A DNA stretch of 60,922 bases from a bacterium (GTDB lineage: Bacteria > Patescibacteriota > Minisyncoccia > Phycocordibacterales > UBA6899). How positions within the stretch are numbered: the stretch's first letter is position 1; the number at the start of each line of letters is the position of its first letter. The stretch covers positions 1 through 60,922 of the forward strand of contig JAJZQJ010000001.1 in the NCBI GenBank assembly GCA_021851895.1, in the 5' to 3' direction. The notes under the pieces were generated by a model. The model worked only from the letters and a program-made list of their open reading frames with translations. It was not told the DNA's origin and did no database searches. The translations under genes were made by a program, and so were the position numbers. Shown piece after piece: positions 8,443 through 46,617 of the stretch.

Positions 8443-8451
8443 AAATTTTTG

Positions 8452-8525
8452 TGCACCTTGGAGGACTCGAACCTCCGACCCCAGCAATGTGAATGCTGTG
8501 CTCTAACCAACTGAGCTAAAGGTGC
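8452..8525 (-). tRNA. tRNA-Val(CAC)
   Basis: A full cloverleaf folds on the minus strand: acceptor GCACCTT/AAGGTGC, D-arm GCTC/GAGC, anticodon stem CAGCA/TGCTG with loop TTCACAT (anticodon CAC), T-arm GGAGG-TTCGAGT-CCTCC, and A73. CCA is not encoded. It stands 5 bp from the left end of the 38-kb element. Before integration it would have followed tRNA-Ser(CGA) in tandem with only four bases (CAGC) between them. Confidence 0.93.
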
Positions 8526-8530
8526 GCTGC

Positions 8531-8561
8531 GGTGACGATGTCCCGAAGTTAGAACCGATTA
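8531..8561 (+). other. attL: attL of the integrated element
   Basis: After a GG at 8531-8532 come GATGTCC (8537-8543) and AAGTTAGAACC (8546-8556). The same two blocks occur inverted at the other end (46490-46496 and 46479-46489). GG is also the shared dinucleotide at the right end (46501-46502). Inverted arms around a dinucleotide are what large serine integrases leave when attP is split between attL and attR. The base just outside, c8530, matches c46500 (tRNA-Ser G73). Confidence 0.7.
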
Positions 8562-8671
8562 GGGGGCTTCATTACAGTCGTGTTGATAAAATTGTACGTG
8601 ATTTAAGGCGAATTTACAAGGATAATCCGGCCTCGTTTGACGTTCCGGCCTTTGCCGTAAAGGTCTACTAA
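8531..8671 (+). pseudogene. Orphan reading frame at left end: alternative 3' end of the integrase gene
   Basis: From the GG core the plus strand stays open for 46 codons (8531-8668) and stops with TAA at 8669-8671. No ATG, GTG or TTG occurs in frame within the element part. If the element is excised and circularised, codon 511 of the integrase (GGC, 46498-46500) joins directly to this frame. The predicted tail is basic and protein-like, for example SRVDKIVRDLRRIYKDNP. In the integrated state it is a headless fragment. That it is coding is inferred; an open run of this length has a chance probability of roughly one in ten. Confidence 0.55.
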
Positions 8672-39592: not shown

Positions 39593-39665
39593 GCTCTCGT
39601 AGCTCAATGGATGGAGCAAGCCGCTTCTATCGGCAAGGTTGGGGGTTCGAGTCCCTCCGAGAGCA
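39593..39665 (+). tRNA. tRNA-Arg(TCT), prophage-encoded
   Basis: Acceptor GCTCTCG/CGAGAGC, D-arm GCTC/GAGC, anticodon loop CTTCTAT (anticodon TCT, reads AGA), T-arm GGGGG-TTCGAGT-CCCTC, A73; CCA is not encoded. The outer anticodon-stem pair is A-A. Unlike four of the host tRNA genes in the window, it has no hairpin plus inverted tail copy after it. Confidence 0.88.
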
Positions 39666-39730
39666 CAAATTTATGTCTGAATACTACACACAACACGTCA
39701 GGGTGTGTATAAGTCCAGATTATGTTGATG

Positions 39731-44153: not shown

Positions 44154-44870
44154 ATGTCATTTGGTTCATATCTAAAACAGCAAAGAGAATCGAATAATTG
44201 GACAATAAAAGAGCTGGCCGAGCGTCTTGGCTTTTCATCGAGCTACGTGAGTCAGCTGGAAAACGGAGCCCGTATTCCGTCCCACAAACAGCTGGAAAGT
44301 TTGGCCAAGGCCTACAAGCTCCCTGAGGAGGAAGTTAGGAAGCACTGGACTGAGGGGAAAATCCAACAGGTCAGCATGGAGAGCAATTATAAATTTGATA
44401 TCAAAGATGCCGGCGTGAAGCGTGTACACGAAGCCGCAAGCAAGCTCGAACAAGGGCTTGAGGAGTTGAAAAACTCTTTTTCTGTCGACGGTCATTTTAA
44501 ATTGCCGGTGCTCGTAGCGATTCCTATTGATGATCTCGATGGTCACTTGAGTCGAACGAGTGAGTTTGTTTTGCTTCCGAAAGATGGAGTCACTCAGGGT
44601 CACCGTGTCTTTGGGCTTCGAGTATCCGAACTCTCACTTCCCGAAGCTGGTATTCTTGCCGGAGACTTCATCATTCTTGATGCGGATATCCATCCCAAGA
44701 ATGGCGACGTCGTGATCATGAGCGTGCCGGAAGGCCTGGTAATGGCTTATTACCACGAGCGGGGCGACCATCTTGAGCTCCGGCCGGAGAAGAAAGGCTT
44801 TAAGAAGACCTATCCTCTCAAAGAGAGCAAGATGATAGGTCGGCTGGTGTATCACATCAAGAAGTATTAA
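44154..44870 (+). CDS. CI-like phage repressor with degenerate S24 peptidase domain (238 aa)
   Basis: The N-terminal HTH (residues 8-62: KELAERLGFSSSYVSQLENGARIP) binds operators. The C-terminal domain is LexA/S24-like: FGLRVSELSLPEAGILAGDFIILD carries the nucleophile position as Ser161. In the segment aligned to LexA's VTVKRL (here LVMAYY) the catalytic Lys is replaced by Ala198, and no Ala-Gly cleavage site is seen before the domain. It therefore probably dimerises but cannot cut itself, so induction would not follow the RecA route. Confidence 0.8.
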   Translation: MSFGSYLKQQRESNNWTIKELAERLGFSSSYVSQLENGARIPSHKQLESLAKAYKLPEEEVRKHWTEGKIQQVSMESNYKFDIKDAGVKRVHEAASKLEQGLEELKNSFSVDGHFKLPVLVAIPIDDLDGHLSRTSEFVLLPKDGVTQGHRVFGLRVSELSLPEAGILAGDFIILDADIHPKNGDVVIMSVPEGLVMAYYHERGDHLELRPEKKGFKKTYPLKESKMIGRLVYHIKKY

Positions 44871-44874
44871 CAAA

Positions 44875-44898
44875 CAGGGCTCTCGCAAGAGAGCCCTG
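44875..44898 (+). terminator. Terminator after the repressor gene
   Basis: CAGGGCTCTC-GCAA-GAGAGCCCTG, a perfect 10-bp stem. No long T-run follows. Confidence 0.65.
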
Positions 44899-44967: not shown

Positions 44968-46617
44968 ATGAACTACTTAATCTACGGCCGTGTTTCCACC
45001 TCTCGTCAGGCCGAGCGAGAACTGAGTATCCCGGCACAGGTGAAGGCATGCCAAAAGTACGGCATGGATCACGGTTGGAATCTCGCACCCGATGGCATCT
45101 ACGAGGAGAAGGGTGAATCGGCTCGAACGGTCGAACGTCCGCAACTTCAGAAGATGCTTCATCGGGCAAAGACCGATACTAAGGTTGATGCGATCTTGAT
45201 GCACAAACTCGATCGTATGTGTCGCAACGTCGCAGACTATGCGGCCATCAAGATGATGCTCAAAAAGCACGATGTCCGACTGATCTCGGTGGTCGAGCAA
45301 TTCGATGAGTCTTTCTCAGGAGAGCTGGTTGAGAACATCATGTCTTCAATTGCCCAGTGGACGTCCCAGAACATCAGCTGGGAGGTCAGGAAAGGTCTCA
45401 AAGAGGCCGTAGAGCGTGGCAGGTTCCCCGGATACGCCCCAATCGGCTATATGAACGACAGGAAGACCAAGTCGCTTATCGTGGACAATGTTCGAGCTCC
45501 TTATGTGAAGCTTGGGTTCGAGCTTTATGCCACCGGCAAATTTTCTTATTACACACTCGGTGATGAGTTGGCAAAACGAGGTCTCAAGAGTAAGGCTGGC
45601 AAACGTGTCTCAAAGAAAGGTGTTGAACGGATGCTTCAAAATACGATTTACTACGGACTTATAAAAACACGATCGGCCACCAATCAGGCAAACTTTCCGC
45701 CACTCATCACAAAGAAAATGTTTGATGACGTTCAGGAGATCATTGCCCAGCACAATCACTACGCAGATCGATCTCGCAAGCACACCTTTCCGCTTACTGG
45801 CTTCATGCGATGCGGTCACTGCGGTTCGATGTTGAGTGGTCAGGTGAAAAAGGGTCACTTGTACTATAACTGCTCTCATCGGCGTGACGCCAAGTGTCCG
45901 GAAAGAAAGTACACACGATCCGAGCTTATCGAGGAACAGGTCATGGCGTATCTTTCGCATGTGCAGTTGCCACCTAAGTTCAAGACCGTTCTGGATGCGT
46001 ACTTCCAGCACTTCGCACAGGAGCGTCTAACGCAAGAGGATAACGAGCGTAAGAGTCTCAAGCACGATTTGATCAGGGTGCAACAGCAGATCCGCAATAT
46101 CGTCGTGGATCGCTCAAAACGCATCATAGACGCAGAGGTTTTTATAAAGATTCAGGACGAGCTTCTTAAGGAGAAAGAGATGTATCAAGATCACTTGGCC
46201 GTGCTCGAGGGCAAGTCGGACAAATTCGTGCAGAAATTCAACGAACTACTGGACTTCACGGATCATGCCGATCAGGTGTACCAAAAGAGTGGCACGAGTC
46301 AGAAGCGAACGGTACTAAAGCTTTGCATTGAGGGATTCACGGTTAGAAATCAAAAACTGACGCCGATATGGACGCCAGTCTTTGATGTTCTAATGGACTT
46401 ACAATTGTCCAAGTTCGATCCCCCAAAAGTCGGCGGCAAGGGTTCTAAAACCGCCTCAGAAACCCTTGCCGTACCTAAGGTTCTAACTTGGACATCTGGC
46501 GGAGATGGAGAGATTCGAACTCTCGACACGGTTTCCCATGTGCTCGATTTCGAGTCGAGTGCCTTCAACCGCTCAGCCACATCTCCGTATTGCAACCCTA
46601 AGCGGAGAGCCGCCTAG
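44968..46617 (+). CDS. Large serine integrase, 3' end fused to host tRNA DNA (549 aa)
   Basis: The catalytic resolvase domain starts at residue 1 (YLIYGRVSTSRQAERELS, Ser10). It is followed by a recombinase domain with GRFPGYAPIGYMND, a zinc ribbon (CGHCGSMLSGQ... YNCSHRRDAKCP, about residues 287-320) and a long coiled coil (about 350-440). Codon 511 ends at 46500, the element border. The last 38 codons, including GEIRTLDT, are tRNA-Ser(CGA) and flanking host DNA read antisense. In the excised circle this tail would be replaced by 46 element codons at 8531-8668. Confidence 0.93.
   Translation: MNYLIYGRVSTSRQAERELSIPAQVKACQKYGMDHGWNLAPDGIYEEKGESARTVERPQLQKMLHRAKTDTKVDAILMHKLDRMCRNVADYAAIKMMLKKHDVRLISVVEQFDESFSGELVENIMSSIAQWTSQNISWEVRKGLKEAVERGRFPGYAPIGYMNDRKTKSLIVDNVRAPYVKLGFELYATGKFSYYTLGDELAKRGLKSKAGKRVSKKGVERMLQNTIYYGLIKTRSATNQANFPPLITKKMFDDVQEIIAQHNHYADRSRKHTFPLTGFMRCGHCGSMLSGQVKKGHLYYNCSHRRDAKCPERKYTRSELIEEQVMAYLSHVQLPPKFKTVLDAYFQHFAQERLTQEDNERKSLKHDLIRVQQQIRNIVVDRSKRIIDAEVFIKIQDELLKEKEMYQDHLAVLEGKSDKFVQKFNELLDFTDHADQVYQKSGTSQKRTVLKLCIEGFTVRNQKLTPIWTPVFDVLMDLQLSKFDPPKVGGKGSKTASETLAVPKVLTWTSGGDGEIRTLDTVSHVLDFESSAFNRSATSPYCNPKRRAA
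46479..46502 (+). other. attR: attR of the integrated element
   Basis: GGTTCTAACTT (46479-46489) and GGACATC (46490-46496) are the inverted partners of the arms at 8537-8556. They are followed by TGGC and GG (46501-46502), the proposed crossover dinucleotide inside the tRNA-Ser acceptor stem. Element DNA thus supplies the discriminator and encoded CCA of tRNA-Ser. Confidence 0.7.
46497..46586 (-). tRNA. tRNA-Ser(CGA), integration target
   Basis: Acceptor GGAGATG/CATCTCC with G73 and encoded CCA, D-arm GGCTGAGCGGTTGAAGGC, anticodon stem CTCGA/TCGAG with loop CTCGAAA (anticodon CGA), a long variable arm, and T-arm GAGAG-TTCGAAT-CTCTC. The element enters within the last acceptor base pairs. The original 3' flank, now at 8526-8530, read G73 then CAGC, so CCA was probably not encoded before integration. 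Confidence 0.95.

Follow-up and report, generated by a model that had tools for sequence, protein, structure and literature searches.

Does integration of this prophage exchange the C-terminus of its own serine integrase, and does the end that is lost have a function in the free phage? The question is raised by a window of 60,922 nt (the whole stretch of DNA that was analysed), in which the integrase frame runs across the border of a prophage of 37,970 bp (8533–46502). The genome has a size of 1.1 Mb and is 99.7% complete. The presence of terminase, portal, tail-fibre, endolysin and CI-like repressor genes indicates a tailed phage. The integrase gene is the rightmost prophage gene and is transcribed outwards (44968–46617). 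The prophage also contains a tRNA-Arg(TCT) gene (39593–39666). The features relevant to the question are the following, with the evidence in brackets.

44968–46502, plus strand: large serine integrase, the 511 phage-encoded codons up to the core (Pfam; same layout in 16 close relatives)
46503–46617, plus strand: run-on of host origin in the lysogen integrase, 38 codons of antisense tRNA-Ser, then TAG (host-specific run-ons in every relative)
8531–8668, plus strand: 46-codon tail, the putative integrase 3′ end in the unintegrated phage, with TAA at 8669–8671 (28 homologous left-end tails; co-variation with the integrase)
46497–46586, minus strand: tRNA-Ser(CGA), the target gene, whose 3′ end is attB (ARAGORN; tRNA order in the same-genus genome G381)
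46479–46502, plus strand: attP P arm and core GCGG at the right prophage end (attR), within the integrase frame (inverted repeat with the left end)
8529–8556, plus strand: core GCGG and P′ arm at the left prophage end (attL) (inverted repeat; homology of the 28 left ends begins here)
8451–8525, minus strand: tRNA-Val(CAC), host gene beside the left prophage end (ARAGORN; tRNA order in G381)
44154–44870, plus strand: CI-like repressor gene directly upstream of the integrase gene, intact, with attP outside it (PHROGs transcriptional repressor families)

The insertion site was located by comparison with G381. There, tRNA-Val(gac), tRNA-Ser(cga) and tRNA-Val(cac) follow one another with no prophage between them, so the prophage was inserted between tRNA-Ser(cga) and tRNA-Val(cac). 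In G381, the 3′ end of tRNA-Ser is also present in a further copy (GCGGAGGTGAGAGGATTTG) beside tRNA-Val (C9, L026/L050). This copy lies <200 bp from the full gene and is perhaps the scar of another element.

The integrase reading frame starts with ATG and comprises 549 codons in the prophage. ARAGORN placed tRNA-Ser(CGA) at 46497–46586 on the minus strand, and the last 38 integrase codons are therefore host tRNA sequence read antisense. The protein matched Pfam Resolvase, Recombinase and Zn_ribbon_recom above the cut-offs and PHROG 95 (integrase) with 1.4e-98. With a Resolvase catalytic domain, a Recombinase domain, a zinc beta-ribbon and a coiled coil, it belongs to the large serine recombinases. 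When the prophage ends were joined at the core GCGG, one frame of 557 residues (511 + 46) was obtained. An alternative alignment of the GG, 3 bases off, still kept the frame and gave 556 residues. The circular junction expected from the joined ends is ...GGACATCTGGCGGTGACGATGTCC..., in frame. A sequence-only reading of the locus had proposed the 511 + 38 lysogen form and the 557-residue joined form, which runs through 8531–8668 to a TAA; the joined frame was reproduced exactly, with the TAA at 8669–8671. The 46-residue tail had no match in Pfam or PHROGs.

The common core GCGG is located at 8529–8532 on the left and at 46499–46502 on the right. The joined site reads GGTTCTAACTTGGACATCTGGC-GG-TGACGATGTCCCGAAGTTAGAACC. 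Its inner arms (GGACATC/GATGTCC) are equidistant from the GG, as in GGACATC-TGGC-GG-TGAC-GATGTCC, and its outer arms (GGTTCTAACTT/AAGTTAGAACC) are shifted against each other by two bases. As inverted repeats flank the core, the joined ends represent attP. The 11-mer repeat occurs in the whole genome only at the two prophage ends. Judged by its sequence, the reconstructed site appears to be a typical large serine recombinase site: a short attP with two inverted arms and a central dinucleotide. In each of the close lysogens, TGG comes from the phage side of the core, so that integration provides the tRNA with an encoded CCA end. For the window, the empty site as reconstructed would instead end in GCAG (relevant positions 46497–46502).

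Scans of IMG/VR and of GTDB genomes yielded 16 close relatives of the integrase with 68–97% identity. Their hosts carry labels of the Patescibacteria (Yonath-, Magasanik-, Kaiser-, Nomura-, Azam- and Vogelbacteria, among others). All 16 relatives have the same core and run in the same frame into antisense tRNA-Ser (anticodons CGA, GCT, GGA and TGA) or tRNA-Asp. Conservation reaches the (T/K)SGG codons at the core and is followed by host-specific run-ons of ~12 to 100 residues. Length changes just 5′ of the core comprise whole codons; L023, for example, is four codons short. In two of the 16 relatives (L103 and L110), the integrase gene is broken further upstream. A crossover that places the two parts in different frames had been named beforehand as evidence against a split gene; the crossover kept the frame in every relative. 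The run-on itself is probably incidental in the lysogen, since antisense frames of tRNA genes are usually open and the run-on differs by host.

The tail was searched as a protein in genomes of the window's family, in genomes carrying close integrases and in a sample of the phylum. It was found in four of eight family genomes (own genome counted), in 11 of 15 genomes with close integrases (10 strong matches, one weak) and, with E below 1e-12, in nine of 380 phylum genomes (own genome counted). The search of G210, whose integrase sits on a 34-kb contig, did not find it. Tail lengths in the relatives ranged from 46 to 58 residues. Each complete copy starts at the core, between GC and GG, and continues into the P′ arm, while the 5′ DNA is unrelated among copies. 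Homology among the left ends begins sharply at the core and holds from the first codon onward. In all lysogens seen, the tail was lost from the integrase gene.

The 28 distinct tails were open in the integrase frame without exception (28/28), as opposed to 1/28 and 0/28 in the other two frames. Nine residues are invariant over 27 tails, including D3, E8, P9, D19, L25, P33, F36 and P39. Outside the att arm, mean pN was 0.34 and mean pS 0.62, with a median dN/dS of ~0.4. With the att arm left out, dN was smaller than dS in 247 of 249 usable tail pairs; these figures are descriptive because the pairs are not independent. Integrase and tail distances were strongly correlated in the ten genomes with both halves (r = 0.975, Mantel p ~5e-5). 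As the halves lie ~38 kb apart in the lysogens, this is what a split gene predicts. That the left-end frame, which had been suspected of being coding, is a real coding sequence is strongly supported by the open frames, the excess of dS over dN and the co-variation with the integrase. A chance open frame was rejected on the frame counts and on dN < dS. The split anatomy, the preserved frame and the purifying selection on the tail are shown by these comparisons.

An ssrA-like degron was also considered for the tail and rejected. The tails end in KVY, KIY, YSI and similar residues, not in an LAA-type sequence.

Structure prediction placed the swap point outside the folded enzyme. The lysogen form was modelled with 31 homologues (mean pLDDT 76.5, pTM 0.35). 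It is ordered up to residue ~482 in the model and has coiled-coil helices at 336–432; residues 483–549 are below pLDDT 50. Residue 511 is accordingly predicted near the end of a flexible or disordered linker, past the last folded part. All canonical large-serine-recombinase domains precede residue 511 and would be kept in the lysogen form. This form is probably still active, as in the model only the part after the disordered linker is lost. Modelled alone, the tail has a helix at residues 15–31 and a short second helix, with pLDDT ~90 in the middle block. The helix agrees with the basic helical segment that had been read from the letters.

Work on phiC31 integrase bears on this position in two ways. 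The residues that follow the last strand are reportedly not essential (PMC5737554), and the tail could accordingly be of minor importance. A directionality factor fused at the C-terminus switches the direction of the reaction (PMC5737554), which makes the integrase C-terminus a position where a module can act.

Most integrases of the wider group run into tRNA genes. A set of 20 other serine-integrase loci whose 3′ ends are complete includes 15 that run into an antisense tRNA. A wider genome scan, which overlaps this set, gave 59 informative loci: 44 cross into an antisense tRNA, two stop before it and 13 have none nearby. In IMG/VR, four of 31 informative loci cross into a tRNA and 27 are without a tRNA nearby.

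A second, distant lineage targets tRNA-Asn or tRNA-Gln, and its lysogen forms end at 508–515 residues. One member (L152:10001–11878, in G403:C51) has a single open frame of 626 residues that is 92–94% identical to the lysogen forms up to residue 500. Its tail of 126 residues contains a ParB-type HTH (PF17762, 3.2e-5, above the cut-off). Homologous tails (72–73% identity) follow the same core in L218 and L222 as stand-alone sequences. In relatives of this lineage, the HTH part is cut from the integrase by integration at tRNA-Asn. L152 is an uninterrupted fused gene and not a proven free phage, because host-type genes flank it. The tail of this lineage was absent from five related IMG/VR records, which are all linear and possibly fragments. 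In the other lineages that cross into a tRNA (ends in FPNWRR or KYWKNVKNGA), the search did not find the opposite prophage ends, and a tail is only expected.

The sequence-only reading had proposed, as a check, to see whether the C-termini of free relatives align with the left-end frame. The outcome was favourable in so far as related prophages have a homologous tail at the opposite end; an unintegrated fused gene of the window's own family was found neither in IMG/VR nor in the 380 genomes. The tail scan of IMG/VR returned only a known lysogen and L196, in which a different integrase precedes the tail, out of frame. The full attP pattern had no match in IMG/VR and one in the 380 genomes, with no integrase before it.

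We consider it likely, with a probability of about 0.88, that attP lies inside the integrase gene, that the gene is split by integration and that the tail functions in the free state. With attP in the 3′ part of the gene, the circular phage would read through it and add the conserved tail after a flexible linker. Recombination at the tRNA 3′ end would cut the gene at the core, and the tail codons would land at the opposite prophage end. The integrase gene would then run on into the antisense tRNA and acquire a heterologous end. As the tail is without a usual start codon, selection on the tail protein should act only via the fused, unintegrated gene. The tail can be translated only from this fused gene and, therefore, its function would be exercised in the unintegrated state, either after infection and before integration or after excision. 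There, it may aid attP × attB integration, bar other site pairs or act on DNA near attP. Integration itself would turn the enzyme into a tail-less form that awaits a directionality factor.

What the tail does is less clear-cut than when it is made. A directional role, aiding integration or barring other site pairs, has in our estimate somewhat less than an even chance. The odds are about even for another role in the free state, such as binding of an extra DNA site, gene regulation or stability. More tentatively still, the sequences would fit a natural direction switch within one protein, in which a C-terminal module of the phage form enables or biases integration and is removed by the reaction. 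Such a switch would be spread over several tRNA-targeting lineages of Patescibacteria and other little-studied bacteria and would have at least two unrelated tail types (short helical and ParB-HTH).

The main competitor is that the overlap with attP serves compactness only. It would keep gene and site together, and the tail would be a dispensable end under weak selection for folding or stability, with no state-specific role. Two points favour this explanation: the enzyme is ordered only up to residue ~482, far short of the core, and the C-terminal residues of phiC31 integrase are reported as non-essential (PMC5737554). However, the nine invariant residues and a dN/dS of ~0.4 are more than a dispensable end needs, and in the second lineage an entire ParB-type HTH domain forms the tail. 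We regard compactness alone as rather unlikely.

Far less probable is an independent small gene in the left-end frame, for a directionality factor or regulator, which uses a non-standard start in the lysogen and is in frame with the integrase by chance. Its place at the prophage end, the resemblance of the second-lineage tail to a stand-alone DNA-binding protein and the fact that directionality factors work when fused to the integrase C-terminus (PMC5737554) would fit such a gene. Yet the left-end frame of the window contains no ATG, GTG or TTG, the 5′ sequences are unrelated among hosts and often have in-frame stops near the core, conservation starts at the first codon past the core, and a fused frame exists in L152. 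That the open frames on both sides are due to chance or assembly artefacts has a negligible probability. The earlier estimate of ~1 in 10 for 46 open codons is reasonable for the window alone, and nearly all relatives are metagenome-assembled genomes, in which single contigs might be misjoined at prophage ends. But misjoining could not have occurred in an identical manner at 16 right and 28 left ends in unrelated assemblies and hosts, with conservation at the codon level, and the relatives settle the doubt that the estimate had left.

Several known systems come close, and each of them differs. In integrases of the phiC31, Bxb1 and TP901-1 type, the gene is known to end before or away from attP and to give an identical product in the free and the integrated state. 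Of the members that have been characterised, most target protein-coding genes and not tRNA genes. The enzyme of the window shares with them the domain order and a short two-armed attP around a dinucleotide. In archaeal suicidal (SSV-type) tyrosine integrases, attP lies within the integrase gene, which is split by integration, often in tRNA genes, and a 2021 review describes self-disrupting recombinases as exclusively archaeal (PMC8371274). The recombination site within the integrase gene is common to both, whereas the catalytic domain here is of the serine resolvase type. Moreover, in SSV-type integrases the catalytic half is split off and no active enzyme is left, while here the model suggests that the catalytic and DNA-binding domains are kept and a tail is exchanged.

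In the integration-dependent immunity of mycobacteriophages (BPs, clusters G, N and P), attP lies in the repressor gene and an ssrA-like tag is removed (PMC9262239, PMC9934374). Again, attP lies in a coding gene, and integration in a tRNA gene removes a C-terminal piece and gives a virus and a lysogen form. There, the integrase is a tyrosine enzyme; here, the integrase gene is the one crossed, the CI-like repressor gene is intact and 1.6 kb from the site, and the removed piece is not ssrA-like. In engineered fusions of integrase and directionality factor (phiC31 Int-gp3, Bxb1), a C-terminal module on a flexible linker alters direction (PMC5737554). Those fusions are artificial and their module favours excision, whereas the tail here is natural, present before integration and removed by it. 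The open literature yielded no description of a serine integrase in which integration exchanges the C-terminus, which is weak evidence of novelty, as most subscription journals were outside the scope of the search.

With this split gene, self-interruption of integrase genes, so far described as restricted to archaea, is extended to bacteria and to enzymes of an unrelated family. One-way insertion of DNA relies mainly on serine integrases as tools, and the basis of direction is a central question. An enzyme changed by its own reaction allows a direct test of direction, in which the full-length form is compared with the truncated and the host-tailed one. An integrase that is taken from the genome record of a lysogen carries tRNA-derived end residues and misses the natural tail. 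The tail is also a useful marker of the far end of the prophage, which is difficult to locate otherwise because serine integrases leave almost no repeat.

Three further observations concern the arrangement of these elements. Between the CI-like repressor gene and the integrase gene lies a strong hairpin of 10 pairs (CAGGGCTCTC, 44875–44898), rated terminator-like by the scan on the minus strand only. A complete attP followed by the tail, with no integrase before the P arm, is present at L201/L216 (G214:C2:222352–222398, minus) and at L185 (G398:C32, ~310–495). These copies may be tandem junctions with satellites that borrow an integrase. Some genomes contain at least two left-end tails, sometimes 1–5 kb apart (G401:C4:41140 and 42499; G393:C11:405 and 5366); further cases are G397 (C3 and C22) and G161:C12. 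This pattern suggests that insertions at a single tRNA site were tandem or nested, or that older ones left remnants.
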